From: Leptospiraceae bacterium
Lineage (GTDB): Bacteria > Spirochaetota > Leptospiria > Leptospirales > Leptonemataceae
Direction: 5' to 3'
NCBI GenBank assembly: GCA_020440915.1
Contig: JAGRNE010000005.1
Coordinates: 1 to 35,857 of the forward strand
Length of the DNA stretch: 35,857 nt
Shown here: positions 771 through 28,381 of the stretch, piece by piece
Layout: every line of letters begins with the position of its first letter
Numbering within the stretch: position 1 is the stretch's first letter
Translations under genes and position numbers: made by a program
Notes under the pieces: generated by a model
What the model was told of the DNA's origin: nothing
Database searches by the model: none
Seen by the model: the letters and a program-made list of their open reading frames with translations, nothing else

Positions 771-2891
771 ATGCGATTTTTTGAACCCGCCTTTCGTGCA
801 GGCGTCTATCCTAATATGAAATCTGTCTCTGCCCGTCCCGGGCTTGTGGCGCTGGCGGCCTGTCTTGCATTCCTGCCCCTTTCGGCCGAAAGCGATTCCC
901 GGGAAACGGAACCTCTGTCCGCCGATTCCAGAATTAGCACCGTCCATGTTTTCGACGGCCAGGCCCTTTTAGTTCGTAAGACTTCCATTACATTACCCGC
1001 CGGTCGCAGTCGAGTTTCCTTTGCAGGCCTTCCGGAAAAACTGCTGGATCAGACAGTCCGCCTGCGACTGAAGAGCGCTTCCGATCTGCGACTTCTGGAT
1101 TTAAGGGTGGAGACTGTGGTGGAAAAGGAGTTTCGCTCCCTGGAAGCCGAAAAAGCGGAGAAGGAACTAAAGGCGGCGGAGCAGGAATTACGTGAGGTCA
1201 CGGCCCTGTATCTGGCTCAGATGGAACAGAAAAAAGCCCTTTCATCCGTGGACCTGAAGCCGGGAGAAAACCAGAGACCTGTAGTCTCCATAGAACGATG
1301 GAAGGCAATCTTCGGATTTGTGGACCAATCCCTGGAAGCTATCAATCAGCGGCTCAATGCATTGCTGGGCCGCATCGATGGGGCGCGTCGAAGACTGGAG
1401 ATTGCGCTTACTGTTGCGGAAAGATATAAGAGCCAGAGCGAGACAAAAAGAAAGACAGTGCTTGTGGATCTGGAAGCGCCCCGGGCCGGGCAGTACGAAA
1501 TCGCTCTGGAGTACGGCGTGGATGATGCGGGTTGGTTTCCTCATTATCGCCTTACTCTGGACGAATCCAGGGCAAGCCGGCCCATGGTTCATCTAACTTC
1601 TGCAGTCTACATCTACAATGAAACCGGCGAAGACTGGAGCAGCGCAAAGGTTTCACTTTCCACTGCGGATTTGACCAATCCCAGTCGACTTCCGGAGATT
1701 CGCAAGTGGACCATCGCTTCGGTGATTCGCCCGGAAAGGGAGCACATAGCTCAGAAGGACTCACCGTCTCGATCTCCAATGGTCCAGAAGTCCAACGATA
1801 TGGAGCGCTCGGTGGCCGAAGAAGCGTATGCCGATGAGCCGGCCCCGGAGGCCAATTCCACCACCGCCTACAAGCCGGCGCCTCAAAAAAAAGAGGAAAA
1901 GTTCATCAAGCAACAGCAGCGCATGGAGCAATCGGTGAACGAGATTCGGGGTTACTATGAAAAGAACCTGGCCGATGTAAAAGAAGATCTGGCAGACCAG
2001 AAAGCCCGGGAGGCCAGGGATCTAATGGAAGACTTTCGGGAATCGGTAAACAAGCAGGAAACTTACTACAACAATAGGGACTTCAGCAATGCCCGACAGT
2101 TCTCCAACAGAACTCTGGAAATCATCAAGCGTCTTTCTCCGTCCGAGCGTGCCCGTTTCGAACGCGAAATCAAGCAGGCAGAGAAAATTCAGTCCTGGTC
2201 CTATGAAATGGAGCAGAGCAAGCTCCTTCGATCGAAACTTACAGCCCCTGGCCGACAGGTGCCCGGAGATTTCTCCATGGACGCTCCGCTGGCAGTGAGC
2301 GTTGCTTCCGATGGAGTGCTACGATCTGTATTCATTTCCGAGGATAGCTACAGCGCCACATTGAGCTATGAAGTCTCGCTAAACGACTCCCCGGGCGCCT
2401 ATCTTACTGCAGCCATTGACTTTACGGGGAAGCAAGCGCTGTTGTCCGGACCCGTAGAAGTCTATTACGGCGAAGACTTTGGCGGAACGTCCCACCATCC
2501 AATGGTGACTGCAGGAGAAACCTACAATCTTAACCTGGGCCGAGATCCAGACATAGAAATCGAGCGCGAAGATAGGGAGTACGAAACCTCCGAAGGCCTT
2601 TTTGGAGGCAAACGTGCCGTGCGCTACGAAACCACGTTCAAGATACACAATCGCCGGAGCTATGCAATCACCATGGATTGCTTTGGCGCTGTGCCCCGAT
2701 CTTCGGACGATCGAATTTCCATTGAGAACGTTCAGCTGAACCCTGCTCCGGTAGAGAAGGAGGACAACGGAATTGTGCGATTCCGCCTGAATCTGAAGGC
2801 CAATGAGCGGTCCAGCATTCGAATGAGTTTTCAGCTCATCCATGATCGGGATGTTCTTCCCGTAGTCCGAGCCGCCGGAGGTTCCCGATGA
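771..2891 (+). CDS. Exported MuiA-family protein (DUF4140/DUF4139), 706 aa, with charged insert
   Basis: A DUF4140-like beta domain (about residues 55-120) is followed by a long coiled coil (about 120-230) and a DUF4139 domain that starts around residue 235. The DUF4139 signature is clear: an aromatic GWFPHYRL segment and then TGEDWSSAKVSLSTADL. About 150 residues of Lys/Glu-rich, probably helical sequence (roughly 345-500) interrupt DUF4139 before its C-terminal part resumes. An ATG at 771 has a GGAGG five bases upstream. An ATG at 816 would give a more compact signal peptide (hydrophobic core VALAACLAFLPLSA) but has a poorer ribosome site. The protein should be exported. Family members are known as mucoidy inhibitor A-like, and their biochemical function is not established. 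The stop overlaps the next gene by 4 bases (ATGA), so the two are probably translationally coupled. Confidence 0.85.
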   Translation: MRFFEPAFRAGVYPNMKSVSARPGLVALAACLAFLPLSAESDSRETEPLSADSRISTVHVFDGQALLVRKTSITLPAGRSRVSFAGLPEKLLDQTVRLRLKSASDLRLLDLRVETVVEKEFRSLEAEKAEKELKAAEQELREVTALYLAQMEQKKALSSVDLKPGENQRPVVSIERWKAIFGFVDQSLEAINQRLNALLGRIDGARRRLEIALTVAERYKSQSETKRKTVLVDLEAPRAGQYEIALEYGVDDAGWFPHYRLTLDESRASRPMVHLTSAVYIYNETGEDWSSAKVSLSTADLTNPSRLPEIRKWTIASVIRPEREHIAQKDSPSRSPMVQKSNDMERSVAEEAYADEPAPEANSTTAYKPAPQKKEEKFIKQQQRMEQSVNEIRGYYEKNLADVKEDLADQKAREARDLMEDFRESVNKQETYYNNRDFSNARQFSNRTLEIIKRLSPSERARFEREIKQAEKIQSWSYEMEQSKLLRSKLTAPGRQVPGDFSMDAPLAVSVASDGVLRSVFISEDSYSATLSYEVSLNDSPGAYLTAAIDFTGKQALLSGPVEVYYGEDFGGTSHHPMVTAGETYNLNLGRDPDIEIEREDREYETSEGLFGGKRAVRYETTFKIHNRRSYAITMDCFGAVPRSSDDRISIENVQLNPAPVEKEDNGIVRFRLNLKANERSSIRMSFQLIHDRDVLPVVRAAGGSR

Positions 2892-4558
2892 ATCGCTTCC
2901 ACAGCAGCCGAGATCAGGATGCCGGCCAGGTCTTTCGCCGATCCAGTAACGGGGCCAGCGCTGGGCGATGGGGCAGTGTTCTGGCTTTATTTTTTGTGGT
3001 TTCCGGCCTTGGCGCTCAAACCCTGCCCTTCCCCATAGAGAGTGTAGTTCTCTACAACGATCGCGCAATGGTGCGGCGAGCCGCGGAAGTGCCGCTGAAG
3101 GCCGGTCTCAATCGTATCATCTATCGCGGCCCGGCAGTGAAACTGAAATCCGATTCACTGTCCGGGTTCTGCGCCCATAGTAGTTGCATTGTGCAAAGTG
3201 TGTGGACCCGCACCGATAAGTCCGATCAGTCGGTGGATACCCGGCTGGCCGCTCTTGAAATGGAGCGAAAGGAACTTCAAACCAGGCTGGATGCCATGAA
3301 TCGGCAGAAGGAAAAGCTGGAAACCCTGGCCAATCTGAACGATCGTTTCCTGGGCTTGCTCTTGCAAGGGGTGTCGGACTCTGCCTTTGAGGCTGCCATC
3401 GCCGCCAATAAATGGCAGAATGCACGGCAGGAGATAGCGCGAAGCAGCGATGACCTACAGCTGGATATTCAGAAACTGTTACGCAAAAGGGACGATCTAA
3501 AGGAAGAGCTGGACCTTGTGGAATCCCGCATCGAGCAGCTTGCATCAGATCTCTCGGATGAAATCCGACTGGTAGAACTTACCCTCTATGTTCCCGAAGC
3601 GATGAAAGTTAAGGCTGGCTTCGATTACATGGTGGAGGATGCCAGGTGGGATGTTTCCTACAACCTGGATTACCGGGAGGGCGCCGCCAGGATCCCCGGC
3701 AAGGTTGTGGGCCTTATACAGCAAAGCAGCGGCGAAGACTGGGTAAACGTTAAACTGGAGCTATCCACTTCGCGTCCGGACCGAGGCGGGAAACGGCCGG
3801 CGCTGTCGGCACTGCAGGTCTACGCTCGAGAGGTTCAAACCACCACCGACATCGTTACACAGAACGAGGCAGTGGACATGGATGGCGTCCGCGACGGGGA
3901 ATCCGGAGAAGATCGTTCGCAGGCCAGCGAAAAACGTCAGATTCGTTTTCAGATTCCGGACCGAGTAAGCATACCGTCCGGACGTCGCTATCAAAGAATT
4001 ACAGTAGCTTCCCTGGATCTGGAGATTCTGGATCAACATCTTCGAGTGGTGGGGCAGGCTTCGTCCAGTGCGCACCGGGCCCTGCAGCTAAAGAATCGCT
4101 CCACCTATTCCATGCTTCCCGGAAAGGCTTACATCTACGGCGCCGAAGGCTATATGGGAATGACCTATATTGACTACACTCCTCCGGGAGCCGAACTTCT
4201 GGCCGGACTGGGTGTTAGCGGCGATGTGCGAATAAAGCGTCGGATCTATCGAAGGCAAAAGGATGCCGGTTTGATCTCCTCCAATCGCATCTACATGACG
4301 GAAATCAGCCTTCAACTTGAGAACCCTTCTTCCCGGGACCAGAAGATTCGGCTATTTGAGCGCACCCCCACATCCTCCACCGAGAAAGTGAAAGTGCGAA
4401 TCCTGGAGGGGACCACGTCCGGCCACAAAGAGCTTTCGCCGGGTAGCGGAATCCTGGTCTGGGATTTCAATATGAAAGCTGGCGAAAAAAGGGAAATCAA
4501 ACTCTCTTATGAGGTAGAGGTGCCGGAAGGGGTTTCCGGAAATTTCTATGGCAATTAG
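2888..4558 (+). CDS. Second exported MuiA-family protein (DUF4140/DUF4139), 556 aa
   Basis: This is a paralogue of the preceding protein with the same architecture but without the large insert. A signal peptide (hydrophobic core SVLALFFVVSGLGAQ, about residues 30-44) leads into a DUF4140-like domain beginning IESVVLYNDRAMVRR. A coiled coil (about 110-215) and a DUF4139 domain follow, with an aromatic DARWDVSYNLDY segment and SGEDWVNVKLELSTSRP. The C-terminal part ends in a typical beta-rich section. The ATG overlaps the previous stop by 4 bases. The thiolase-like gene begins about 25 bases downstream with no visible terminator between, so it may be cotranscribed. Two adjacent, diverged DUF4139 proteins suggest a hetero-oligomer at the envelope, which is inference. 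Confidence 0.85.
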   Translation: MNRFHSSRDQDAGQVFRRSSNGASAGRWGSVLALFFVVSGLGAQTLPFPIESVVLYNDRAMVRRAAEVPLKAGLNRIIYRGPAVKLKSDSLSGFCAHSSCIVQSVWTRTDKSDQSVDTRLAALEMERKELQTRLDAMNRQKEKLETLANLNDRFLGLLLQGVSDSAFEAAIAANKWQNARQEIARSSDDLQLDIQKLLRKRDDLKEELDLVESRIEQLASDLSDEIRLVELTLYVPEAMKVKAGFDYMVEDARWDVSYNLDYREGAARIPGKVVGLIQQSSGEDWVNVKLELSTSRPDRGGKRPALSALQVYAREVQTTTDIVTQNEAVDMDGVRDGESGEDRSQASEKRQIRFQIPDRVSIPSGRRYQRITVASLDLEILDQHLRVVGQASSSAHRALQLKNRSTYSMLPGKAYIYGAEGYMGMTYIDYTPPGAELLAGLGVSGDVRIKRRIYRRQKDAGLISSNRIYMTEISLQLENPSSRDQKIRLFERTPTSSTEKVKVRILEGTTSGHKELSPGSGILVWDFNMKAGEKREIKLSYEVEVPEGVSGNFYGN

Positions 4559-15098: not shown

Positions 15099-16082
15099 AT
15101 GACTCCTGCCGCCTGGATAGAGAAATGCAGTCCCGATTGGAACCGATTTCAGGTTCTACTCAGATCCATGGAGTACAATCCTATGGGGGCCACCGCAGAA
15201 GAACTGCGCGAGTTTTCCCGGCTCTACAGAAAAGTAACTACCGATCTTTCGTTGGCCACTGTCTATCGATTACCAGAAGACCTTTCCGATCGGTTGCAGG
15301 ATCTGGTGAGCAGGGCCCATAGCTTTCTTCATTCCGGCCGAAAAGACCGGGGACGGTTGCGAAAGTTTTTTCTAGAAACTCTTCCTGCAGGAGTATTCTC
15401 CGATCGCTATGCCTGGAGCTGCATCGCCATATTCTATATTCTGTTTTCCATCACCGGCATCCTGGGTTATCAGTACAGGGATTTTGCCTCCTCGATTCTT
15501 GGCGAAGCGACGCTTCAGCAATACGAATCCATGCATTCCGGCGAAAGGGAGGAAATCACCGCTGGAGATTCGCTGATTGGCTCCAGCTACTACATCCTGA
15601 ACAATTTGAGTTTATCTTTGCTTTGCTACGGTCTGGGCATTCTTGCCGGGGTGGGCTCGCTCTATATGCTGGTCTACAATGGCTTCTACCTGGGAACGCT
15701 AATTGGATTTCTTTTGCATTCGCCGGCCAGGGACAATATCCTCAACTGGATTCTGGCTCATGGGCCCTTTGAACTCACCGCCATTGGCCTGTCCGCAGGG
15801 GCCGGTCTTCGCACCGGTCTGGCTTTCTTTAGCCCTGGAAGTAATACTCGCCTGCGGGCCGTAACGGAAGCAGGATTGCGAAGCGTCCCCGCTCTTACTG
15901 CCGATGTAATTCTCACATTCATTGCGGCTTTTATTGAAGGGTTTGTGGCGCCTTCCGCGCTGCCCACAGAGGCCAAAGCAGCCATTGGCATAATTTGCTT
16001 TGTTCTGATAATTTTATACTTCGTCATCTATGGCTGGAGGGTGCATTCTGGACGTACGCCGGATACAATACGAGCTACGTAA
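15099..16082 (+). CDS. SpoIIM/DUF95-family membrane protein, first gene of MoxR cassette
   Basis: The 327-aa product has an amphipathic N-terminal cytosolic region of about 105 residues and then about five or six membrane segments. These include WSCIAIFYILFSITGILGY, SLLCYGLGILAGVGSLYML, a long central pair, and two near the C-terminus. HGPFELTAIGLSAGAGLRTG is the signature of the stage II sporulation M / DUF95 family. In non-sporulating bacteria such proteins are regularly encoded beside MoxR ATPases and DUF58 proteins, as here, and are thought to form the membrane part of that system; the biochemical role is unknown. ATG 15099 has a poor ribosome site. The next gene overlaps its last 53 bases, so the cassette is densely packed. 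Confidence 0.85.
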   Translation: MTPAAWIEKCSPDWNRFQVLLRSMEYNPMGATAEELREFSRLYRKVTTDLSLATVYRLPEDLSDRLQDLVSRAHSFLHSGRKDRGRLRKFFLETLPAGVFSDRYAWSCIAIFYILFSITGILGYQYRDFASSILGEATLQQYESMHSGEREEITAGDSLIGSSYYILNNLSLSLLCYGLGILAGVGSLYMLVYNGFYLGTLIGFLLHSPARDNILNWILAHGPFELTAIGLSAGAGLRTGLAFFSPGSNTRLRAVTEAGLRSVPALTADVILTFIAAFIEGFVAPSALPTEAKAAIGIICFVLIILYFVIYGWRVHSGRTPDTIRAT

Positions 16083-16854
16083 GCGAAGAGCGGACGAGAT
16101 CCTGGACTTCGCTTTTGTGGTTATCCGCGAGAAGATGGGCCAGATTGTGCGAATTACGGCTCCCTTTATTCTGGCATTTCTGGCACTCAACATGGCGCTG
16201 GTATACCTGATCCGTGCTTCCGGCGAGCAGGAAAGCGGAGTGATTCAGCTCCTGCTGCTTCCAGTGGTATTGCTTGAACTTATGGTGCTTCAGGTGCCGC
16301 TATTCCATATGAATGCGCGCTGGCTTTTTGAGGAAAAAGTGGCGGACCGAACAATCTGGAAAGACACCGGCCGCACCTTTCTTCCTTTTCTGGGACGAAT
16401 CATCCTTCCTTATTTGATTCAACTTGTTCTGGCGCCGCTGCTGCTGCCGCTCTGGAACGTCCTGATTCGTAGCTTCTACCGACCGGAAGTGCTATTTCTG
16501 GAAGGGCTTCGCGGTCGGGATCTGCGCCGCCGTATCTCTTCGCTCACCTCGGCTTTTCAGGTCTTTACTTTCTGGATCTTTCATGCGGTACTGTTCTGGG
16601 TGGCCATGTATTTGAGCCTGACCTTTTGCGAAGCGATTCTGGAACTGCTTCGGGTCCAGAACTATCAGCAGTTCACCGCCTTTAACCTGGCCTCGCCCCT
16701 CTTTCTACTTCTCTTGATGCTTTATTCTGTATTCTTCGCCGTTTCTCGGTTCCTTTTTTATGTTGATGCGCGCACCTATCTGGAAGCCTGGGATCTGGAA
16801 TTGCAGCTCATTCGAGGTCTGGACGAGATGACTTCGCAAAAGAGGATTAGCTGA
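16030..16854 (+). CDS. Polytopic membrane protein of MoxR cassette, unknown family
   Basis: The 274-aa product has about five hydrophobic segments, at residues 44-61, 71-93, 124-146, 175-200 and 218-245. An N-terminal basic helix (VRRIQYELRKRRADEI) precedes them. Between segments 3 and 4 lies EVLFLEGLRGRDLRRRISSL. This faintly recalls the E-x-x-x-x-x-A-L-R-R-S loop of the glycerophosphodiesterase membrane-domain superfamily, a weak resemblance only. In comparable cassettes of other bacteria this position is often taken by an RDD protein; I see no RDD motif. The start overlaps the SpoIIM-like gene by 53 bases in another frame. A start further in is possible because GGAGG lies just after the ATG, but no standard in-frame start follows at good spacing. 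Confidence 0.75.
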   Translation: MAGGCILDVRRIQYELRKRRADEILDFAFVVIREKMGQIVRITAPFILAFLALNMALVYLIRASGEQESGVIQLLLLPVVLLELMVLQVPLFHMNARWLFEEKVADRTIWKDTGRTFLPFLGRIILPYLIQLVLAPLLLPLWNVLIRSFYRPEVLFLEGLRGRDLRRRISSLTSAFQVFTFWIFHAVLFWVAMYLSLTFCEAILELLRVQNYQQFTAFNLASPLFLLLLMLYSVFFAVSRFLFYVDARTYLEAWDLELQLIRGLDEMTSQKRIS

Positions 16855-16856
16855 AA

Positions 16857-17603
16857 ATGGACGGCGTTTTGCGCAGACTATCTTCCGCGGCAATTCTGCT
16901 GAGTCTTTGTACCCTGGTAGCTGTCTTCGCCAGCGGTTGCGAAGAATTCAAGGACATGACCGGTCAGGGAAAGGCCGAGGAAGATTTGACCGCCTATGAG
17001 AAAGAACTCAAGGAAATGTCCTGGTACGATTGGGATCGCCGGGACTACAGAAAGTTCAAGAAAGAGGATCTGGATCCTTACCTGGAGGACGATCGCAAGC
17101 GACCGGCTTCTTCGGATTCTTCCGGCTCTGCGGGGTTCAATTTCACCATTATGCTCTATGTCGTTGGTGGGGCAGCCATAGTTGTTCTTTTGTATTTGAT
17201 CTTTCGCAACGGCTTTTCCTTCAAGCGAATGGGGCGGGCCAGAGATGAACCGGAAGTGGACATCGGTTATAGCGCCGAGGCTCCGCGAAAAAGGGATCCT
17301 CTATTTGACGATGCATTGAAGGCGCTGGAAGAAGAGCGCTATTCCGATGTGATGGAAGTGCTTCTGGAAATACTGGTAAGGTTCAGCCATTCAGAAAACT
17401 ACCTTGCTCGAAGGTCCGGTTTCACTCCCCGGGAGTTTCAGCGCATGGTGCGAAAGGTGGCTCCGACATCTTTTGTACAGCTTGCGGACGATCTATCTCC
17501 TGCTTTCGAGGAAACGGTGTACGCGTTGCGACCCCGCTCCCATCAGTTTTATCTCGATATGATTCATCGAATGGAAAAGCAGTTGCAGGGAGTGGGACGA
17601 TGA
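16857..17603 (+). CDS. Lipid-anchored single-span protein of MoxR cassette (DUF4129-like)
   Basis: A 248-aa protein. The signal peptide ends in a good lipobox, VFASGC, with Cys28. A charged periplasmic segment (29-95) is followed by one membrane span (about 97-116), so the remaining 130 residues should be cytosolic. The C-terminal part (ALKALEEERYSDVMEVLLEIL, then FTPREFQRMV) has the layout of the DUF4129 cytosolic helical domain: a helix pair with a short T-P/R-E-F/L motif that occurs in MoxR-DUF58 clusters. The assignment is by position and pattern, not strong similarity. It starts 2 bases after the previous stop and overlaps the next gene by 4 (ATGA). A lipid anchor plus a membrane span in one small protein is unusual. 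Confidence 0.7.
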   Translation: MDGVLRRLSSAAILLSLCTLVAVFASGCEEFKDMTGQGKAEEDLTAYEKELKEMSWYDWDRRDYRKFKKEDLDPYLEDDRKRPASSDSSGSAGFNFTIMLYVVGGAAIVVLLYLIFRNGFSFKRMGRARDEPEVDIGYSAEAPRKRDPLFDDALKALEEERYSDVMEVLLEILVRFSHSENYLARRSGFTPREFQRMVRKVAPTSFVQLADDLSPAFEETVYALRPRSHQFYLDMIHRMEKQLQGVGR

Positions 17604-19024
17604 CGTTCCGGAACTGGATGGGCCCTGTACGGGCTATTTCGCTGCTCGCATTGGCTTATCTGGCCCATTGCACCGAGCCTCTCATTGTAGAGATGTACGG
17701 TATGGATGGAGTGGAAAGCATCAATGCCTTCGATCTGTTCGACGAATCTCTGGCTAAAGATGTGGATGTGCAGCGAAAGGGTTTTCTGGAGGCTTCCTTC
17801 TTCGAAGAGCAGGATGTAGTACTCTTTCTGGATCGCTACGGAGATGGCCGGGCCTACGCAACGCTCATCCCCTATTTGAATCGACTGAACCGGACCTGGG
17901 AATCCGACGAGGAGTCCGGAACCACTGCATCCTTGTTGATTCTGTTACGGGACTCGGATGCCAGCGTAGAAGCATGGCGAAAAATCGCGCTGGACATGCC
18001 TGAAGACACCAAAGCCAGGCGAGTCTCGGAAGAGGTACTGGCTTATAGAATCTTTCAGATGCATTTCCAGCGCGCTTTCTACGATTCCTTTCTGGGGCTC
18101 AAACAGACCAAAGCGCCGGAAGAGGAAAGAATACCCCGGGATCTACCTGTGGAAATGCAGGGTCCTTTTCCGGTGCTGTCCGAGAAAAACTGGAAACCCA
18201 TGTCAGAATGGTACGTGCCTTCCCGTTTTGCCGAAAAGGATGCGACCTGGAATTATAATCCTCACTGGCGATCTCGCATGCCGGACCTGGAAGAGGCGGA
18301 GTCCAGACTGGGCCCGCTACCCGCCGCATTGCCGGTTCGGCGCTTCCTGGAACCTTCGGATTACATCGGTTTTGGACCGCCCCCGGAATCCACCGGCGAG
18401 CTTGATCCTGTTACCGCTGAAGAACTGGACGACTATGCCCGTTTTCGCTCGGGGCCTCGCACCATCATTAGCGTGGCCGGCCGCCCACTACTGGTAAGAA
18501 TACAGTATGGCCGAATTCCCATCTATATTATGGCAGGCAGCGAGCCATTCTTGAACTGGCATATGGCACGGTCGGAGAATCGTTCCTTTCTCACCTTTCT
18601 GCTGTACGCAGTTTCTGAACGCAACGCCTCTGAGCCGCTCAAGGTTACCTATATACAGCGCGGCCTGGCCCCGGCGGAGCAGATGGCTTCCCAGGAACGC
18701 AGCCTGGTGTTTCTCTTTTTCGAGGAGCCCTGGGGCATTATTCTAGGTCTTTTTATCCTGATTCTATTCGTCTTCATCTGGGCTCGCTTTCCCCATGACA
18801 GAACGCCCCTTCAGGCGCAGGAATCGGGCAGTCGGCGTTTTAGCGAGCACTTCGAAGCCCTTGGTAGTCGAATGGTCCGGTCCAGGCAAAGAACAAAGGG
18901 CCTGGCGCCCTTGATTCGCTACAAGAAGAAGGAAAGTATAGATAAAGTATTTCCCGAATTGGAACAGAAAATCAAGTTAAAGGAAGAAACCATCCTGAGC
19001 AGGGTGCGTAAACTCTGGGAGTAA
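17600..19024 (+). CDS. Large periplasmic/lipid-anchored protein of MoxR cassette (DUF4350-like position)
   Basis: A 474-aa protein. A signal peptide ends LAYLAHC, with a possible lipid-attachment Cys24; His before the Cys is non-standard. A long periplasmic domain (about 25-377), a single membrane span (about 378-396, WGIILGLFILILFVFIW) and a basic cytosolic tail of 78 residues follow. DUF4350 proteins occupy this slot in related cassettes and have a Rossmann-like extracytoplasmic domain followed by a span. Here GPRTIISVAGRPLLVRIQYG and AYATLIPYLNRL could be such a core, but I cannot establish homology. The ATGA overlap with the preceding gene and 3-base spacing to the MoxR gene indicate one transcript. 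Confidence 0.7.
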   Translation: MTFRNWMGPVRAISLLALAYLAHCTEPLIVEMYGMDGVESINAFDLFDESLAKDVDVQRKGFLEASFFEEQDVVLFLDRYGDGRAYATLIPYLNRLNRTWESDEESGTTASLLILLRDSDASVEAWRKIALDMPEDTKARRVSEEVLAYRIFQMHFQRAFYDSFLGLKQTKAPEEERIPRDLPVEMQGPFPVLSEKNWKPMSEWYVPSRFAEKDATWNYNPHWRSRMPDLEEAESRLGPLPAALPVRRFLEPSDYIGFGPPPESTGELDPVTAEELDDYARFRSGPRTIISVAGRPLLVRIQYGRIPIYIMAGSEPFLNWHMARSENRSFLTFLLYAVSERNASEPLKVTYIQRGLAPAEQMASQERSLVFLFFEEPWGIILGLFILILFVFIWARFPHDRTPLQAQESGSRRFSEHFEALGSRMVRSRQRTKGLAPLIRYKKKESIDKVFPELEQKIKLKEETILSRVRKLWE

Positions 19025-19027
19025 AGA

Positions 19028-19990
19028 ATGCTTAGTGAGCAAGAACAGGCACAGATGCGCGATGCTTTTCGCAAACTAAAGGAACAGATGAGCGAGGTCT
19101 ACGTTGGTCAGCTGGATCTGATCCGGGGAATCCTTGCGGCTTTGTTCGGGGGAGGCCATGCTCTCATTGAAGGAGTGCCGGGTCTGGGAAAGACTCTGCT
19201 GGTAAGGACGCTGGGCAGCATTCTGGGATGTGAGTTTAACCGAATCCAGTTTACCCCGGACCTCATGCCTTCCGACATTACCGGTTCGCATATATACGAT
19301 CAAAAAGAGCAGAAGTTTGTGTTCTATCGCGGCCCGGTATTCACAAACCTGCTTCTGGCCGATGAAATCAACCGCGCTCCTGCCAAGACACATTCCGCTC
19401 TTCTGGAGATAATGCAGGAAGCGCGCATCACTGTGGATAACAGCACTTTTCAGGTAGATGAACCATTCTTTGTAATGGCCACACAGAATCCGGTGGAATC
19501 TGAAGGAACTTACAATCTGCCGGAAGCTCAGCTGGACCGGTTCCTGGTAAAACTCTATATCGATTATCCGGAAGAGGGCGAAGAGACCAGTATCTACACC
19601 CAGCATGCTGGTCGCGGAGAGCCGGAGCCCGAAAAGCTGAAACCGGTGATGACCGCCAAAGGCGTGCTCAAGGCCATGCAACTCTGCGAAAAAGTAACTC
19701 TTTCTGAAAGCATAATCGAATACATAACCCGACTAGTCCGCGAAACCCGGAAAAGGATCGAAGTGCAACTGGGCTGCTCTCCGCGGGCGGGCATTGCCTT
19801 GATTCGCACATCCCGGGTTCTGGCCCTCATGAATGGCCGGGATTATGTAATTGCCGATGATATCAAAGAAATGGCCCCGGCCTGCTTTCGCCATCGATTG
19901 ATTCTGACTCCGGAAAGCGAAGTGGAAGGAATGAAGCCGGATGACATTGTGAACAGCATTCTAGAATCCGTCGAGGTGCCCGGAACCTGA
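19028..19990 (+). CDS. MoxR-family AAA+ ATPase
   Basis: A 320-aa AAA+ ATPase. Walker A is GVPGLGKT (49-56). Walker B is LLLADEINRA with Asp112-Glu113. ATQNPVESEGTYNLPEAQLD is the sensor-1 region typical of MoxR proteins. The C-terminal lid has SPRAGIALIRTSRVLALMNG (sensor 2). MoxR ATPases act as chaperone-like remodelling enzymes that work with vWA-domain partners. The immediate downstream gene is a DUF58 protein, the standard partner. The ribosome site GGGAG lies 6 bases before ATG 19028. This is the only energy-using component of the six-gene cassette and so the likely motor. Confidence 0.95.
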   Translation: MLSEQEQAQMRDAFRKLKEQMSEVYVGQLDLIRGILAALFGGGHALIEGVPGLGKTLLVRTLGSILGCEFNRIQFTPDLMPSDITGSHIYDQKEQKFVFYRGPVFTNLLLADEINRAPAKTHSALLEIMQEARITVDNSTFQVDEPFFVMATQNPVESEGTYNLPEAQLDRFLVKLYIDYPEEGEETSIYTQHAGRGEPEPEKLKPVMTAKGVLKAMQLCEKVTLSESIIEYITRLVRETRKRIEVQLGCSPRAGIALIRTSRVLALMNGRDYVIADDIKEMAPACFRHRLILTPESEVEGMKPDDIVNSILESVEVPGT

Positions 19991-19991
19991 G

Positions 19992-21335
19992 ATGTTCTAT
20001 CCCACCAATCGATTCTGGTATCCTCTGGTTGTTCTGGCATTCCTGTCGGTGGCAGTGGCGGGAATACTGTACTTCATACCTTCCTTGCGGATCTACTACG
20101 AAACCGCCCGGCTGATTATCCTTGGAACCCTGGGATTCTGGTTTGCACTTGGATTTCTGGACGCGGCCACCATTCCGGGGCGAAAGCGATTTCTGGTGGA
20201 GCGCCGGGCAGATCGAATATTCTCCCAGGGTTTTCGCCATCATGTAACTCTGGAATTTCACGTTAGAAAAACCTTGCTGGGCCGATTCAGGGTCCAGGTG
20301 GCGGACCATGCTTTTGAGTCTGCCAGGCATTACGGGATGCCGTACGTTGGCGAGTTTCGCCGGGGAGTAAATACACTTTCCTATCGGATTCGCATCGCCC
20401 GTCGCGGGCTGTATCCCTTTCGGCATATCTATCTTACTGCATTTTCTCTGATGGGGTTCATGCGCGGGATTCATCGGATTTCCTGCGCCACCGATGTCCG
20501 TGTGTATCCGGACTTGAAGGCCATTAGCCGGTACCTTCTTCTGGCTCGCAAAAGCCATCTGGGCTTGATGGGCGTAAGGAAATTTCGTCGGCGGGGCGGC
20601 GATCAAGAGTTCGAGAGGCTAAGGGATTACACCAGGGACGATGAATTCCGTCACATCGATTGGAAAGCTACGGCCCGTAATCAAAAGCTGATTGTCAGGG
20701 AATACGAAATGAACCGCAACCAGAGCGTTTTGTTTCTTGTGGATTGCGGCCGAACCATGACGGCCACAGATGAAACCCGATCCTATCTGGATTATGCGAT
20801 CAACGGATCTCTACTGCTGACTGCGGTGGCCGAACGGCAGCAGGACCGGGTAGGATTTCTGGCCTTTTCAGACCGCGTCCTGCGCTATGTTAAGCCTGCC
20901 AGAAACAACCGGGAGAAGATTATCCAGGCCGCTTATGACCTGGAGGCCGGCTACGCAGAAAGCGACTATGAAGGGGCTTTTCGATTCCTGAACACGGTAC
21001 TGCGAAAGCGCACTCTTCTAATTCTTCTTACGACCATCATAGACGATCGTACCGCAGAGATGGTCCATGCATACCTGGGCACATTGAGCGGAAAACATCT
21101 GCCTTTTGCGGTCATGCTCAACGCACCCGATTTGCACCGAAGCCTGGAGTCCCCTCCTGAGACTCTGGACCGGGCCTTTTACCAGGCGGGAGTAGCCGAT
21201 TTTCTGTTATGGAAGGCGGAGCTGTATCAGAAATTAAAGAATCGTGGAGTGCTGGTGCTGGATACTCTTCCAGAGGATTTAAATGCCGGGATTATTAATG
21301 AATACCTGCGCATCAAAGCGCGAAACCTTCTCTGA
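19992..21335 (+). CDS. DUF58 protein with N-terminal membrane hairpin and vWA-like domain
   Basis: A 447-aa partner of the MoxR ATPase. Two membrane segments (about 8-32 and 37-59) are followed by a beta-rich region. The DUF58 signature is DEFRHIDWKATARNQKLIVR, starting at residue 217. A vWA-like domain then opens VLFLVDCGRTM. Its metal-site motif is degenerate: Asp251-Cys-Gly-Arg-Thr instead of D-x-S-x-S. TLLILLTTIIDDRT gives the later vWA strand. DUF58 proteins are regularly encoded next to MoxR genes and are presumed targets or adaptors of the ATPase. It starts 1 base after the MoxR stop and is the last gene of the cassette, convergent with the SGNH esterase gene 84 bases downstream. Confidence 0.92.
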   Translation: MFYPTNRFWYPLVVLAFLSVAVAGILYFIPSLRIYYETARLIILGTLGFWFALGFLDAATIPGRKRFLVERRADRIFSQGFRHHVTLEFHVRKTLLGRFRVQVADHAFESARHYGMPYVGEFRRGVNTLSYRIRIARRGLYPFRHIYLTAFSLMGFMRGIHRISCATDVRVYPDLKAISRYLLLARKSHLGLMGVRKFRRRGGDQEFERLRDYTRDDEFRHIDWKATARNQKLIVREYEMNRNQSVLFLVDCGRTMTATDETRSYLDYAINGSLLLTAVAERQQDRVGFLAFSDRVLRYVKPARNNREKIIQAAYDLEAGYAESDYEGAFRFLNTVLRKRTLLILLTTIIDDRTAEMVHAYLGTLSGKHLPFAVMLNAPDLHRSLESPPETLDRAFYQAGVADFLLWKAELYQKLKNRGVLVLDTLPEDLNAGIINEYLRIKARNLL

Positions 21336-23180: not shown

Positions 23181-23240
23181 ATGGTAACTCTGACGCTATG
23201 TTGCAGAATGCCGCCATGCATGGCAGCGATGTGGATGTAA
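23181..23240 (+). CDS. Possible 19-aa upstream ORF overlapping the GHKL ATPase start
   Basis: AGGAAAG (23167-23173) lies 7 bases before ATG 23181, which opens 19 codons ending TAA 23238-23240 and includes the residues TLCCRMPPC. It overlaps the start of the ATPase gene in another frame. The ATPase start (23198) has no ribosome site at proper distance, so translation of the short ORF might couple to it. Chance is also possible. Confidence 0.2.
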   Translation: MVTLTLCCRMPPCMAAMWM

Positions 23241-23962
23241 AAGACCGAGAAAAGATACTGAGTGCGGTCAACGAAGGCAAAAGGGTCCGATTCCTGACCT
23301 ATTCCCTTACCGATACCATGGAACGGCAGCTGGACTTCGTAATTGCGGCCATTCTAAAAAAGCACCACCATGCGCCATTGCAGAGCACTCTGTACTCCTG
23401 TCTCAAGGAACTGGTAGTCAACGCCACCAAAGCCAATGCGAAACGAGTTTTCTTCGAAGAGCTAGGCCTGGACATAAACAACGCCGAACAGTACCGCCAG
23501 GGAATGCAGAAGCTCAAGGGTTCCATGTCCGAGAAATGGATTCGGGAGTACGGTGAGAAGGCCCGGCTCAAGGGGCTGGAAACATCCATAACGTTCGATC
23601 ATACCGATGAGGGACTGCGCATTCTTGTACTTAACGATACGGATTTGATTGGCGCGGATGAAACCAGGATCCGGGAAAAGCTGGCCGAAGGGATGAGCTA
23701 CGACGATTTACTCTCTTTCTACATGGCCAACGGCGATCAGACGGAAGGGGAAGGTATGGGACTGGTGATGAATCTTCTGCTGCTGAAGGGAGAAGAAACG
23801 GATCCGGCGCTGTTTCGCATTGGCACCGTGGATGGCAAAACCATGGGCAGAATTGAAATCCCCTTCAATGCAAATTTTCAAAGCGTTCGGGGCAAGGATC
23901 CCCGGGGCTGGAGGGATCGGCCCGCTGAAGAAACCATCAATTTGAATTTTACTCGCAGTTAG
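23198..23962 (+). CDS. Stand-alone GHKL (histidine-kinase-like) ATPase domain protein, 254 aa
   Basis: The N-box is CLKELVVNATKANAKR with Glu71 and Asn75, as in histidine kinases and anti-sigma factors. Residues 138-152 (GLRILVLNDTDLIG) occupy the G1 position but lack the usual D-x-G-x-G. GEGMGLVMNLL (184-194) is a good G2/lid box. About 55 residues between the N-box and G1 form an extra helical insert. No DHp domain, receiver or membrane span is present, so it is not a classical sensor kinase. It may bind ATP as a regulator or anti-sigma-like protein, or phosphorylate a partner. The start at ATG 23198 is uncertain; ATG 23216 is an alternative. It is divergent from the glycerophosphodiesterase with a 75-base gap. 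Confidence 0.75.
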   Translation: MLQNAAMHGSDVDVKDREKILSAVNEGKRVRFLTYSLTDTMERQLDFVIAAILKKHHHAPLQSTLYSCLKELVVNATKANAKRVFFEELGLDINNAEQYRQGMQKLKGSMSEKWIREYGEKARLKGLETSITFDHTDEGLRILVLNDTDLIGADETRIREKLAEGMSYDDLLSFYMANGDQTEGEGMGLVMNLLLLKGEETDPALFRIGTVDGKTMGRIEIPFNANFQSVRGKDPRGWRDRPAEETINLNFTRS

Positions 23963-24196: not shown

Positions 24197-25699
24197 TCAA
24201 TCCAGTGGGCTGCCGAGTAGAATATCTTCGGAATGAATGATTCGCTGCCGGGGATAATGTTGCCGAAGTCGGCTGATTCTGGATCTATACTTCTCGTTTG
24301 TACGCGCCGCTGTGTTTTCCATGTACTCTGCATTTTTTTCTGTCAGGCGAACATGAACTGCTTCCAACCGTAGACGTTGCGGAGGTTCGTCCAGATGCAT
24401 TTCATCCTGCCATATGCGAATTTCGCCCGAACGAAGCCTGTTGTCGGCGATCTGTCGGGCTTCCGGCTCCCACTCCCAGTGCTGGCCAATGCGATAGCTC
24501 TTCTCCGCTTTTTCGGAAGTAGGATAAGCGATGACTTTCACCAGGATGAATCGTTCCGGATCGCCGGTGGGCAGATGGTGGGCTGTATCCTTGTTCGCCA
24601 TCCGGATGGTAAATCTCAGCGTTCCGCTGGCCGGGATCCATTCATAGCCGACCAGCGAAAGGTCCAGGCCCGAGCGATACCCGCCTTTTTCCTGATAAGG
24701 CAGCAGGGAAAACTCTTTGGGAATACCGCCGCCTATAAAATAATGTAGATGGGAACGCCTCTCCGGAAAGTCCCCGGCCACCGAAGCGATCTTTCTTTCG
24801 AGCTCTGGCATATGGCAACTGGAGCAACTGCGATCCGAAAGTTCAGACTTTGCCAGCTCATTTCCCGTATCGAAGAAGCAAACCAGAGAGGAACTAACTT
24901 TGTAGGTAACGTTGTGACAATCCAGGCAGCGCTTCTGAAGCGACTTTCTGTCTGCCACTACCGGATGCGGAGCCCGACCCGTGCCCAGGGGCCCCAGGAC
25001 TACAGTGCGACCATCCACGTTTCGCAGATGACATGTGGCGCAGGTTACGCCTTCCTCCATCATGGAAGGATCAAAGCGCGGATTCTTTTCGTGTACTGGC
25101 TGTAGAAGATCCCCGTCCTTTACCTTTCGCACGATGGTTTCTCTCTGGTTGCCCACCGGAATATGGCAGTTCAAACAGAGCCATTCCGGTGAAGTAGGCT
25201 TGGAGAGCTCGGACTGGAATTGCAGATCGGAAAGAGCATGGGCATGGGTGGATCGGGACCATTCTTCGTAATGACTGGCATGGCAGGTGCTGCAATCTTT
25301 TGCAGTAATTCCAGGACTTCCCTGTAACGGACCCATGTTTTCCATGGGCAGAGCCCAGGACTGGTCGGGAAACATGGACTGAACCGAGACTTCCGTGGAT
25401 TCTGCCCCATTCTCCATTTCTGTAGCTTGCGGTATCTTTACCTGGTCGGAGCCTTCTTTGCCACAACCTGCCAGAGCAAAAATGCCAGCAAGGGCAAGAA
25501 CCGGCGCCGCAAGATACGGACGATATGCGAATGCCGCGCAGGACCGGTAACTCGAAGACCAGCCAAACCGGGGCGCAGAAGGCCAATAGCCAGAAGCGAA
25601 GTATTTCCCTGGTCGGAATTGGATGATGGAACTCAACGTCTGCGATAGCAGATTCTTACCCGCGTAGACAATGGCATGTACTGACCTACTGCCATTCAT
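24197..25699 (-). CDS. Penta-haem cytochrome c lipoprotein, 500 aa
   Basis: Five C-x-x-C-H haem-binding motifs are present: CSTCH (136), CLNCH (175), CATCH (220), CLDCH (258) and CSSCH (292). Extra His residues such as HASHYEEW and HAHAL could be axial ligands. The first part resembles cytochrome c554-type multihaem proteins. The last 200 residues are a beta-rich domain without haem sites. ATG 25699 overlaps the rhodanese stop by 4 bases (ATGA), with GGAG 9 bases upstream. A strong lipobox, FALAGC, lies unusually far in (Cys79) after about 60 non-hydrophobic residues, and no alternative start codon is seen nearer. It probably carries electrons at the periplasmic side. Being coupled to a rhodanese suggests sulfur chemistry, which is inference. 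Confidence 0.9.
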   Translation of the reverse strand: MNGSRSVHAIVYAGKNLLSQTLSSIIQFRPGKYFASGYWPSAPRFGWSSSYRSCAAFAYRPYLAAPVLALAGIFALAGCGKEGSDQVKIPQATEMENGAESTEVSVQSMFPDQSWALPMENMGPLQGSPGITAKDCSTCHASHYEEWSRSTHAHALSDLQFQSELSKPTSPEWLCLNCHIPVGNQRETIVRKVKDGDLLQPVHEKNPRFDPSMMEEGVTCATCHLRNVDGRTVVLGPLGTGRAPHPVVADRKSLQKRCLDCHNVTYKVSSSLVCFFDTGNELAKSELSDRSCSSCHMPELERKIASVAGDFPERRSHLHYFIGGGIPKEFSLLPYQEKGGYRSGLDLSLVGYEWIPASGTLRFTIRMANKDTAHHLPTGDPERFILVKVIAYPTSEKAEKSYRIGQHWEWEPEARQIADNRLRSGEIRIWQDEMHLDEPPQRLRLEAVHVRLTEKNAEYMENTAARTNEKYRSRISRLRQHYPRQRIIHSEDILLGSPLD

Positions 25700-26760
25700 G
25701 GCTCTTTCTCCAGAGGGTATTTGTCCGGATCGCCGGCGGACCAGAACCACATGCTGCCGGCGAAGTTAGAGGCCTTAAATCCATGATGCCGCAGCAAGGC
25801 CGTAACCATGGCCGATCGTACACCTCCGGTGCAATAGGGAACAATTCTCTGCTCTTCCCGGATACCATGATCTAGCAGCAGCTGGCGAATTTGCGCTTTC
25901 GAAAGAGAGTAACCGTTTGGATCCAGAAAATCCTGAAAGTAAATATGCTTTGCTCCCGGTATATGCCCGCCACGACTTTCGCCGTATGGTGTTTGCCCCT
26001 GGTATTCAACCTTCTCTCGAACGTCCAGAATTGCAATATCATCTGCTTTGAAGCGTCTGCCCAGCTCCTCTCTGGAGATGGTATAAGGAACGTCTACAGT
26101 CTGCCCTTCCTGCATCTTCGCATCCGCGTAGTCTGTGTCATTTCCCAGGACTGCCGGTGACGGATGTAAGGAAGGTTCGCTTCTATTCTTTTTTGTAAGA
26201 TCTCCTTTCATGGGTCCTACACTGGTTTCCAGATATGGTACCAGACTCTGATAGCCTCCATCTACAAGATAGCTATTGCGAATTCCTGCCTCTCGAAGCA
26301 TCCAAACGATTCTTCCTTCTTCGCCCCAGCCATTCCTGGCTCCTCCGTACACAAAAACCAGGCTATCTTTCTGGACACCGAGTTCGGAGAGGCGCGCCTG
26401 AAGTTCTTGCTCTGCAAGCAGCATTCCTCTTTCTTCATCTTTGCGGGAAAAGTCTTTCCAGGCGATATGTGTGGCGCCTGCGATATGGGCGGTTACATAG
26501 ACTCCATAGAAACGCGCATCCAGCAAGATGGCCTGCTGTATGCTGGAGGATGCATCGCCTGGATGCACAATCCAGGGTGTTGACGAAGGATGATGAGGGG
26601 CCGGGCCCGAGCCCGCCATAGTACAGTTTGCAACAGTCATAAGTAAAGCAACGAAGACAGGAGAAGAGCGGTAAATAGCCTTCCAAAGGGGCCGCCTTAG
26701 ATTCTCCGCAGGAAGCGACGCCTGGATGTCGGCTCGGCGAAGACTTTGTTGCAGATCCAT
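25696..26760 (-). CDS. Exported double-rhodanese sulfurtransferase, predicted lipoprotein
   Basis: Two rhodanese domains. The N-terminal one (about 65-190) contains ILLDARFYGVYVTAHIAGA and LVFVYGGARNGWGEEGRI, with Gly in place of the catalytic Cys. The C-terminal one (about 235-345) has AILDVREKVEYQGQTPYGES, GHIPGAKHI and the active loop PYCTGGVRS with Cys310. This is the layout of thiosulfate/3-mercaptopyruvate sulfurtransferases. The loop is C-T-G-G-V-R, closer to thiosulfate-type loops than to C-G-S-G-V-T, but substrate preference is not certain. The N-terminus has a hydrophobic stretch ending LLMTVANC (Cys46), a relaxed lipobox, so it should be periplasmic. It starts 1 base inside the epimerase stop (TAATG) and is coupled to the cytochrome gene. 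Confidence 0.9.
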   Translation of the reverse strand: MDLQQSLRRADIQASLPAENLRRPLWKAIYRSSPVFVALLMTVANCTMAGSGPAPHHPSSTPWIVHPGDASSSIQQAILLDARFYGVYVTAHIAGATHIAWKDFSRKDEERGMLLAEQELQARLSELGVQKDSLVFVYGGARNGWGEEGRIVWMLREAGIRNSYLVDGGYQSLVPYLETSVGPMKGDLTKKNRSEPSLHPSPAVLGNDTDYADAKMQEGQTVDVPYTISREELGRRFKADDIAILDVREKVEYQGQTPYGESRGGHIPGAKHIYFQDFLDPNGYSLSKAQIRQLLLDHGIREEQRIVPYCTGGVRSAMVTALLRHHGFKASNFAGSMWFWSAGDPDKYPLEKEP

Positions 26761-27734
26761 TAGAGTTGCTTCCGATGGTAATCAACGGTTCGCTTGAGCG
26801 TTTCCTCAATAGGGCGGATCTGCAAGCCCAGATTGCGAATTTTGGTGTTGTCCAGAAGCTTCTTTCTGCCTCGCTGACGTACTCGATCTACAGTCATTTT
26901 GGGCGGCCGGCGGGTGAACCAATCTGACATCTTCTCCATCAAAAATCCTACTGCATATACAAGAAATCGGGGCAGGCGAAGACCAGGTCCGGGAACACCG
27001 CTGACCTTTTCCAGCAATCCAAAGAACTCCTTTAGAGATACATCATGACCGGCCAGAATGTAGCGTTCCCCGGCTTTTCCTTTTTCCAGAGCCAGTATCT
27101 GGCCTTCGGCCAGGTCATCCACGTCGATGACATTGAAGTAGCCATAGAAGTAAAAGGGAATCTTTTGTCTCAGAAAATCCTTTACTACCTTTCCCGTGGG
27201 CCCGGTATCTCCCGGCCCAAATGGGCCCGATGGATTTAATATGACGATTTCCGGGCTATCGGATTTCTCAATGAACTTCCAGACTTCCTGTTCTGCCAGG
27301 AATTTGCTCCTGGTGTAGTGGGAGCTCTTCTTGTATTCCTTGAACGGAGTATTCTCGTCGGAGAGGCCTCGCGGATTCCAACCTATGACGTTTTGAGTGC
27401 TGGTGTAGACAATTCGCTTCACACCCTTCTCTCTGGATTTTTCCAGTAGTAGCCTTGTTCCGTCCACATTTACACGGTACATAGGCGAAAAGTCTGCCAT
27501 CCATTGCGCATGTATGGCGGCCAGGTGGAATACAAAGTCCACTCCGTCCAGGGCTATATCCAGGTCCGAATCGCTGGTAAGGTTTCCGTCCAGGATCTCT
27601 ACGTCCAGGCCGTCCAGCCGATCTCTGGGCTCAGAAGGAAGAGCCAGAACTCTCACTCTGTATTTTCTTTCCAGAAGGTTGCGCACTACGTGGGAACCTA
27701 TGAATCCGGCCCCTCCGGTTACCAGGCAAAGCAT
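26760..27734 (-). CDS. NAD(P)-dependent epimerase/dehydratase, HpnA-like extended SDR
   Basis: An extended short-chain dehydrogenase, 324 aa. The nucleotide-binding motif GGAGFIGSH is at 7-15, and the catalytic Tyr140-x-x-x-Lys144 is in SHYTRSKFLAEQE. Segments such as YRVNVDGTRLLLE, NPSGPFGPGDTGPTGKVV, FNVIDVDDLAEGQILALEKG and GERYILAG follow the pattern of hopanoid-associated sugar epimerases (HpnA) and dihydroflavonol-reductase-like proteins. HpnA-type function is plausible in hopanoid-making Leptospirales, but no other hopanoid gene is in the window. It is first in the operon, followed by the rhodanese and the cytochrome. The ribosome site before ATG 27734 is weak. Confidence 0.88.
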   Translation of the reverse strand: MLCLVTGGAGFIGSHVVRNLLERKYRVRVLALPSEPRDRLDGLDVEILDGNLTSDSDLDIALDGVDFVFHLAAIHAQWMADFSPMYRVNVDGTRLLLEKSREKGVKRIVYTSTQNVIGWNPRGLSDENTPFKEYKKSSHYTRSKFLAEQEVWKFIEKSDSPEIVILNPSGPFGPGDTGPTGKVVKDFLRQKIPFYFYGYFNVIDVDDLAEGQILALEKGKAGERYILAGHDVSLKEFFGLLEKVSGVPGPGLRLPRFLVYAVGFLMEKMSDWFTRRPPKMTVDRVRQRGRKKLLDNTKIRNLGLQIRPIEETLKRTVDYHRKQL

Positions 27735-27901: not shown

Positions 27902-28381
27902 ATGAGCAAAACAAAACTAATAGAGATACATACGGTGGTGGCCGCCGATCCAGATACCGTTCGTCGATCTTTGAATCGAAAACTCTTCGAAGCATTGAAT
28001 CCTCCTTTTCCTCCGGTTAAGGTCCTTCGATTCGACGGCATCCAAAAGGGAGGAATTACCCATCTAAGCCTCAATTTCTTCTTATTTAAGCAAGAATGGA
28101 TTAGCGAAAACACCAGGTCGGAGTCCAGCACAGAAGACGGGGGTTTCCAATTTGTGGATGAAGGGCGAAAACTGCCCTTCTTTCTTGCATTCTGGCGGCA
28201 TACGCATATTTTCGCAGAAATCCCCGGGGATACGGATCTGTCACAGACTCGTATTACGGACCGGATTGAATACCGGGGCAACGGAATGATGGGGCTTTTT
28301 TTGCAACCCATACTGGTCTTGCAGTTCAAATACAGAAAGCCTGTATATCGGAGAATCGCTTCTGGCGAATTTCTCCAGTAA
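27902..28381 (+). CDS. START/SRPBCC-like protein, 159 aa
   Basis: A small cytosolic protein without signal peptide. The pattern is N-terminal IEIHTVVAADPDTVRRSLNR, a run of beta strands (ITHLSLNFFLF, WISENTRSESS, FFLAFWRHTHIFAEI, TRITDRIEYRG) and a C-terminal helix (QPILVLQFKYRKPVYRRI). This matches the helix-grip SRPBCC fold used to bind hydrophobic ligands. The assignment is by pattern and moderate. It lies 60 bases before a PlsC acyltransferase on the same strand, so a lipid-related role is plausible. ATG 27902 has no strong ribosome site. Confidence 0.65.
   Translation: MSKTKLIEIHTVVAADPDTVRRSLNRKLFEALNPPFPPVKVLRFDGIQKGGITHLSLNFFLFKQEWISENTRSESSTEDGGFQFVDEGRKLPFFLAFWRHTHIFAEIPGDTDLSQTRITDRIEYRGNGMMGLFLQPILVLQFKYRKPVYRRIASGEFLQ

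Follow-up and report, generated by a model that had tools for sequence, protein, structure and literature searches.

Gene Structure of the Locus

The window analysed here is a stretch of 35,857 nt (contig JAGRNE010000005.1, positions 1 to 35,857 of the forward strand) from the draft genome of a Leptospiraceae bacterium (GCA_020440915.1; 3.70 Mb, 78% complete). Within it, three open reading frames (ORFs) on the minus strand overlap in the order epimerase, rhodanese, cytochrome. The first encodes an HpnA-like NAD-dependent epimerase/dehydratase (26760..27734), the second an exported two-domain rhodanese, that is, a sulfurtransferase and possible lipoprotein (25696..26760), and the third a pentahaem c-type cytochrome, a predicted lipoprotein that combines a Cytochrome_C554-type haem part with an immunoglobulin-like (Ig-like) domain (24197..25699). 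The latter two genes adjoin each other in every sampled genome that holds both, and we tentatively propose that their products cooperate in a redox chemistry of sulfur or selenium outside the cytoplasm.

The overlaps described in an earlier note, made from the sequence alone, are all present: epimerase and rhodanese share 1 nt in the junction TAATG, and rhodanese and cytochrome share 4 nt in the junction ATGA. A GGAG lies 8 nt upstream of the cytochrome ATG and a weak site precedes that of the rhodanese; promoter- and terminator-like matches in the window are no more frequent than in shuffled sequence. The two downstream ORFs are not chance readings, since both recur in the other four genus members, the cytochrome with 63-71% identity and the rhodanese, in the case of G002, as fragments. 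One scan of named genome contigs found the same locus in three deposits (3 loci): Spirochaetaceae bacterium NP120, Spirochaetaceae bacterium NP47 and Leptospiraceae bacterium HKST-UBA07.

A Pentahaem Cytochrome With an Ig-like Domain

The cytochrome matches Pfam PF13435 (Cytochrome_C554) with an expectation value (E) of 1.5e-8. The five haems that the earlier note had assigned to it are borne out by exactly five CxxCH motifs, all on the minus strand: CSTCH (25280..25294), CLNCH (25163..25177), CATCH (25028..25042), CLDCH (24914..24928) and CSSCH (24812..24826). Five such motifs occur in 11/11 members of the family assembled here. Exactly five further histidines, at alignment positions 75, 168, 242, 297 and 372, are invariant in every member covering them, a number that would probably suit five bis-histidine haems. 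The canonical lipobox LAGC makes the lipoprotein prediction firm for this protein; counted from the ATG, as many as 78 leader residues precede its cysteine, an unusually long stretch, and an in-frame TTG at codon 22 offers an alternative start.

Two further sites are conserved. A non-haem cysteine, residue 274 of the precursor (24878..24880, minus strand), lies between haem motifs 4 and 5, is invariant in 11/11 cytochromes and has a cysteine counterpart in the alignments with the two solved relatives, namely 5ze8 (the penta-haem cytochrome c552 of Thermochromatium tepidum) and MccSep (a multihaem cytochrome c selenoprotein; 9wt8 and related entries). The motif HxxPTGDPER (24551..24580, minus strand) lies in the Ig-like domain. 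Its His374 is a candidate haem ligand, and its Asp380 is invariant in the 10/10 members covering the site, so that on this weak segment alignment none of these ten carries a selenocysteine (Sec) in the loop. In the profile alignment the selenocysteine of MccSep falls on that aspartate; its number, Sec325, was counted from the aligned sequence line and the variant name U325A. Taken residue by residue, these pairings of cysteine with cysteine and of aspartate with selenocysteine are likely rather than certain, coming as they do from weak segment alignments of 4 to 11 bits.

The placement of the cytochrome depends on profiles. Alone, the window protein reached 5ze8 with an E of only 0.12, and a phmmer search with one unpaired cytochrome returned no solved relative at E<=0.1, so a profile was needed. 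With a profile of all 11 cytochromes, 5ze8 is the best solved match (E 1.5e-9) and MccSep also matches (E 4e-6), each in three segments. MccSep ranks first for a profile of four unpaired cytochromes (E 3e-5); a profile limited to the region that follows haem 3 matches 5ze8 at 1.4e-4, MccSep not being listed. Among NCBIfam families, the model of the Geobacter cytochrome ExtKL (NF040886) is matched by 10/11 members at E<=0.01, its best value (1.4e-10) being the lowest of any family there. The 250-bit cut-off of this equivalog is reached by none of 51 genomes, the window protein scoring 15.6 bits and that of G059 39.2 bits.

Fold comparison led to the same relative. The top Foldseek match of the AlphaFold model is 5ze8 (E 8.9e-7, the next being 2.7e-4), with a template modelling score of only 0.27-0.29, as the poor modelling of the haem half would lead one to expect: there the mean predicted local distance difference test score (pLDDT) is 43.8, residues 1-266 lie below 50, and the high-confidence stretches are in the C-terminal part. 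By VIA, 5ze8 reaches Z 11.5 over 141 residues, with a root-mean-square deviation of 3.0 A and 15% identity, the aligned part being the C-terminal Ig-like beta domain (model residues 257-418). The window protein thus shares with c552 five haems, the Ig-like domain, the H-x-x-PTG motif and the aligned free cysteine, but differs in its low identity and in having aspartate where c552 has alanine. With MccSep it shares the aligned haem segments, the free cysteine and the G-H-x-x-P-x-G loop, but differs in having Asp380 in place of Sec325. We conclude that the window cytochrome is a diverged member of the pentahaem plus Ig-like kind represented by c552, ExtKL and MccSep. No paper on MccSep was found in the literature searched.

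The genome that holds the window also encodes a second related cytochrome (L078 3347-4711; G000:C167), in which CxxCH occurs six times and the motif HHFPTGD is present.

An Exported Rhodanese With One Catalytic Cysteine

The rhodanese matches Pfam PF00581 in two stretches (E 4.1e-25), and two rhodanese domains also emerge from the fold comparison (model mean pLDDT 58.5), as in the two-domain thiosulfate/mercaptopyruvate sulfurtransferases (Azotobacter RhdA 1e0c, 3aax and others). Compared with these enzymes it is exported, carries the loop CTGGVR and is paired with a cytochrome. Domain 1 has no cysteine, whereas domain 2 holds the catalytic loop CTGGVR (25816..25833, minus strand; Cys310), which with its following serine is invariant in 7/7 homologues. 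One catalytic cysteine is found in all seven; in the mature protein Cys310 is the sole cysteine besides the putative lipid-anchor cysteine of the genus members. From the domains and this loop we infer an active sulfurtransferase.

The earlier note had predicted two lipoproteins. That holds for the cytochrome, but only weakly for the rhodanese: its lipobox, VANC, is atypical in having asparagine at -1, and the signal region has no cysteine in 3/7 homologues (G039, G025 and G043). The rhodanese is also the least conserved of 18 window genes compared with G001, G003 and G004, at 36.5-39.2% BLAST identity against 55.8-90.2% for the others (44-47% in the multiple alignment), and it varies in length: from the GGHIPGA motif to the catalytic loop, G003 has 53 residues more, G001 62 and G004 11. 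Models of defence systems match neither the rhodanese nor the cytochrome. No plasmid relatives of the cytochrome were found; the rhodanese matches 72 plasmid records, all below 60% identity, the ten listed lying at 25-31%.

Distribution of the Pair

We searched 392 Spirochaetota genomes with thresholds of E<=1e-35 for the rhodanese and E<=1e-40 for the cytochrome. The rhodanese was found in 7 genomes and the cytochrome in 10 (11 genes), five genomes holding both; a sixth is added by G002, in which a rhodanese fragment adjoins the cytochrome at a contig end. The two genes are adjacent on one strand in 6/6 genomes that have both, which supports the pairing that the earlier note had proposed checking in other genomes. 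Five of these genomes belong to one genus in which the block is syntenic over ~20 kb; the five cases therefore count once, and their co-location is discounted. The sixth, G039, belongs to another family and has the pair with no flanks in common. The overlap is 4 nt in the window and in G003, and 1 nt in G039. At the level of genera, 2 of 167 hold both genes, with 6 and 4 carriers of the one or the other (hypergeometric P 0.006, a calculation that ignores kinship).

In G059 and G011 the unpaired cytochrome gene follows that of a conserved protein of 314-332 aa with a signal region ending in cysteine (L070 9351-10349; L072 2553-3497). No Pfam or NCBIfam family matches the G059 copy at E<=1, and this protein is a possible further partner of the cytochrome.

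The combination has a precedent. In the available text of one report, the extHIJKL cluster of Geobacter sulfurreducens codes for a rhodanese lipoprotein (ExtH), an outer-membrane protein (ExtI), ExtJ and a pentahaem cytochrome predicted to contain selenocysteine (ExtKL), and in 10/18 extHIJKL regions a different rhodanese, with <40% identity to ExtH, lies beside extIJKL (PMC6148476). As far as that text goes, both lineages have a rhodanese gene clustered with one for a pentahaem cytochrome, the cytochromes being distant members of one kind; the rhodanese varies fast and the cytochrome is steadier. Unlike the Geobacter genes, the rhodanese and cytochrome genes of the window overlap directly. 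The Pfam scan of 29 window proteins returned no porin, nor any second cytochrome or sulfur enzyme; the ExtI model itself was not searched. Unlike ExtKL, the window cytochrome scores far below the family cut-off and has aspartate for selenocysteine, and no genus protein matches the ExtH equivalog (NF040901) at E<=1e-5, none of the 48 genomes of the class sample exceeding its cut-off of 200 bits. All five genus genomes are drafts, 77-94% complete.

Because Geobacter clusters ExtH with ExtKL, the spirochaete pair is, on the parts of these reports available, a variant of a known combination, without selenocysteine and with no porin found nearby. The word "undescribed", which the earlier note had applied to the pathway, is accordingly too strong (PMC6148476; PMC5877670). 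In the literature searched, which did not cover most subscription papers, we found no description of the pair in spirochaetes, and searches on rhodaneses with multihaem or pentahaem cytochromes likewise showed none.

A Possible Chalcogen Redox Module

Adjacency in all genomes with both genes, co-occurrence among genera, the family placement of the cytochrome, the invariant residues and, as far as their reports were available, the Geobacter clusters with the poorer selenite and tellurite reduction after loss of extI (PMC6148476; PMC5877670) together point to a two-protein extracytoplasmic chalcogen redox module, working like ExtH with ExtKL but with no adjoining porin. We favour this reading tentatively, holding it a little short of an even call. 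The gene structure, the placement of the family, the conserved adjacency and the invariant residues are observations; what we infer is the functional partnership, its substrate, its direction, the roles of the residues and the sulfur or selenium chemistry itself.

In such a module the exported rhodanese would take a chalcogen atom onto its single Cys310. The atom could be sulfane sulfur, donated by thiosulfate, by polysulfide or by the persulfide of a thiol, or else selenium from a reduced selenium species. The rhodanese would then offer this atom to the cytochrome, and the five haems there, each probably with bis-histidine ligation, would supply or remove electrons. Contact or catalysis would most likely involve Cys274, which lies between haem motifs 4 and 5, and the loop with Asp380, where MccSep has its selenocysteine. 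As a first guess at direction, persulfide or selenium species would be reduced to sulfide or selenide.

We also entertain a bolder and doubtful extension, in which the whole pentahaem plus Ig-like family would be haem-wired chalcogen enzymes rather than plain wires. The non-haem cysteine, together with the loop bearing aspartate, selenocysteine or alanine, would carry a persulfide or perselenide; among the relatives of Leptospira, direct loading or unloading would fall to a dedicated rhodanese with a single cysteine, the whole acting as an extracytoplasmic persulfide (or selenium) reductase or oxidase.

A number of observations weigh against the module. Some concern the placement of the cytochrome near c552, ExtKL and MccSep, which is a distant one: the model cannot be relied on over its haem half, unrelated Ig-like domains reach VIA Z values of up to 10.2, the sandwich being a common fold, and reaction-centre cytochromes match one segment of the 11-member profile at E 1.8e-7, better than MccSep. 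The UshA-like and NrfH models match 11/11 members (best 1.4e-7 and 5.8e-7, weaker than the best ExtKL value), and the MccSep segments behind the cysteine and selenocysteine alignments score only 9.9 and 4.4 bits. The non-haem cysteine is invariant in the unpaired cytochromes too and so is not specific to the partnership.

Others concern the pair. The G039 example lies on a single 4.2-kb draft contig that ends inside the cytochrome gene, and a binning error is possible. The earlier note had regarded separate location of the orthologues as telling against a linked function, and here the genomes answer both ways: adjacency holds wherever both genes occur, but 5/10 cytochrome genomes have no such rhodanese (G009, G011, G016 and G059, with G002 counted only because its rhodanese is cut) and 2/7 rhodanese genomes, G025 and G043, have no cytochrome. 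In G011 a weaker rhodanese relative and the cytochrome lie on different contigs. The paired cytochromes are not supported as one clade, that of G039 grouping with the unpaired one of G009 (support 92/90), and the rhodanese tree gives no resolved branching.

Searches for a wider pathway add to this side. No SoxB exceeds the cut-off in the 48 class genomes, nor is there a match at E<=0.001 in the five genus genomes; weaker SoxB matches occur in 10/48 class genomes, G039 included. The Mo-co_dimer domain has no match in any of the 48. We accordingly set aside Sox-type sulfur oxidation and a sulfite-oxidase-type partner; the sulfur link of the earlier note is a presumed one, drawn from the rhodanese fold and its CTGGVRS loop. 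For an MtrB/PioB outer-membrane conduit the five genus genomes likewise gave no match, nor did they for ExtH. Elsewhere in the class sample, the only MtrB/PioB match is in G007 (L118; G007:C21:834-3131; E 3.1e-86), a hint that electrons may cross the outer membrane through a conduit in the genus of G007.

Alternative Readings

The chief rival is that the cytochrome is a general electron carrier of the envelope, in the periplasm or at the outer membrane, a role already suggested for other pentahaem relatives, while the rhodanese is a co-transcribed stress enzyme or one that detoxifies cyanide or sulfide, the two having no direct partnership. The four genomes in which the cytochrome occurs with no rhodanese argue for it, and the five extra invariant histidines for five haems suggest a wire rather than an open catalytic haem. 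Relatives elsewhere also favour it: the accessible portion of a study on cable bacteria proposes a pentahaem family with ExtKL, Gsu2801 and the Ig-like domain, reports its small members as structurally homologous to c552, and discusses the cable-bacteria relatives as putative nanowire formers (PMC11976967), while the part available of another reports an ExtKL homologue as highly expressed in the syntrophic Seep-SRB2 (PMC10553843). Against such a carrier stands the recurrence of the overlapping adjacency in a second family with different flanks. We regard this alternative as unlikely, yet as one to be taken seriously.

A different catalytic role, in which the cytochrome reduces another small molecule (nitrite, hydroxylamine, selenite or tellurite) and the rhodanese does no more than provide or remove intermediates bound to thiols, appears improbable to us. 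Models of NrfH, NrfB and octahaem tetrathionate reductase weakly match some or all members, and the Geobacter data, as far as the report is available, connect the loss of extI with impaired selenite and tellurite reduction, participation of ExtKL being proposed (PMC5877670). The window scores for these three models are, however, far under their cut-offs, and a protein with only CxxCH motifs and five extra invariant histidines has no obvious open haem.

The rhodanese might instead be an assembly accessory that keeps the invariant cysteine of the cytochrome, or its haem-binding cysteines, in the right sulfur state. This would suit the gene order, rhodanese before cytochrome and overlapping in three genomes, as well as the invariant cysteine itself, but cytochromes with the same cysteine exist where no rhodanese does, and we consider it very unlikely.

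Finally, the epimerase is probably incidental to the module. HpnA is its best-scoring NCBIfam model (TIGR03466), yet at 304.6 bits it stays below the cut-off of 367.65, and squalene-hopene cyclase (TIGR01507) has no match at E<=0.001 in the 5/5 genus drafts and none over cut-off in the 48 class genomes, other hopanoid genes not having been searched. A lipid- or hopanoid-linked operon of all three genes is scarcely credible: the TAATG overlap in the window, the HpnA match and the presence of the epimerase beside the pair in G001, G003 and G004 would favour it, but the adjacency was seen only inside the genus, gaps of ~70 to 320 nt (ORF starts as called) replace the overlap in those three genomes, and the short G039 contig has no HpnA-like gene. 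We therefore rejected the hopanoid link on the score, the genus-only adjacency and the missing cyclase; the lipid role that the earlier note had allowed the HpnA-like gene is unsupported, and its second suggestion, that the gene is incidental, fits these results.

Genomic Surroundings

The neighbours of the pair are assigned by Pfam to lipid or phosphodiester turnover, acyltransferase and nucleotide cyclase functions. Elsewhere in the window, two proteins stand out for their lack of family matches. One, of 254 aa (23198-23962), is 77-90% identical across the genus and has no Pfam match at E<=1; the other, of 159 aa (27902-28381), has neither a Pfam nor an NCBIfam match at E<=1, and ORFs of the same cluster (156-196 aa) occupy the corresponding position in L065, L066 and L067. 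The window also contains a tandem of two overlapping DUF4139/DUF4140 genes (771-4558) and one run encoding SpoIIM, three proteins with no Pfam match at E<=0.001, a MoxR-type ATPase and DUF58 (15099-21335), which is kept in the genus stretches compared.

Implications

With the pair, the rhodanese and pentahaem combination of Geobacter gains a two-gene version in the Leptospira lineage, which lacks selenocysteine and near which no porin was found. Reduced in this way to what may be its core, the unit provides a simple system for asking what the role of these cytochromes is. The role of the invariant non-haem cysteine, and of the position held by selenocysteine or aspartate, would also matter for understanding ExtKL, MccSep and c552.

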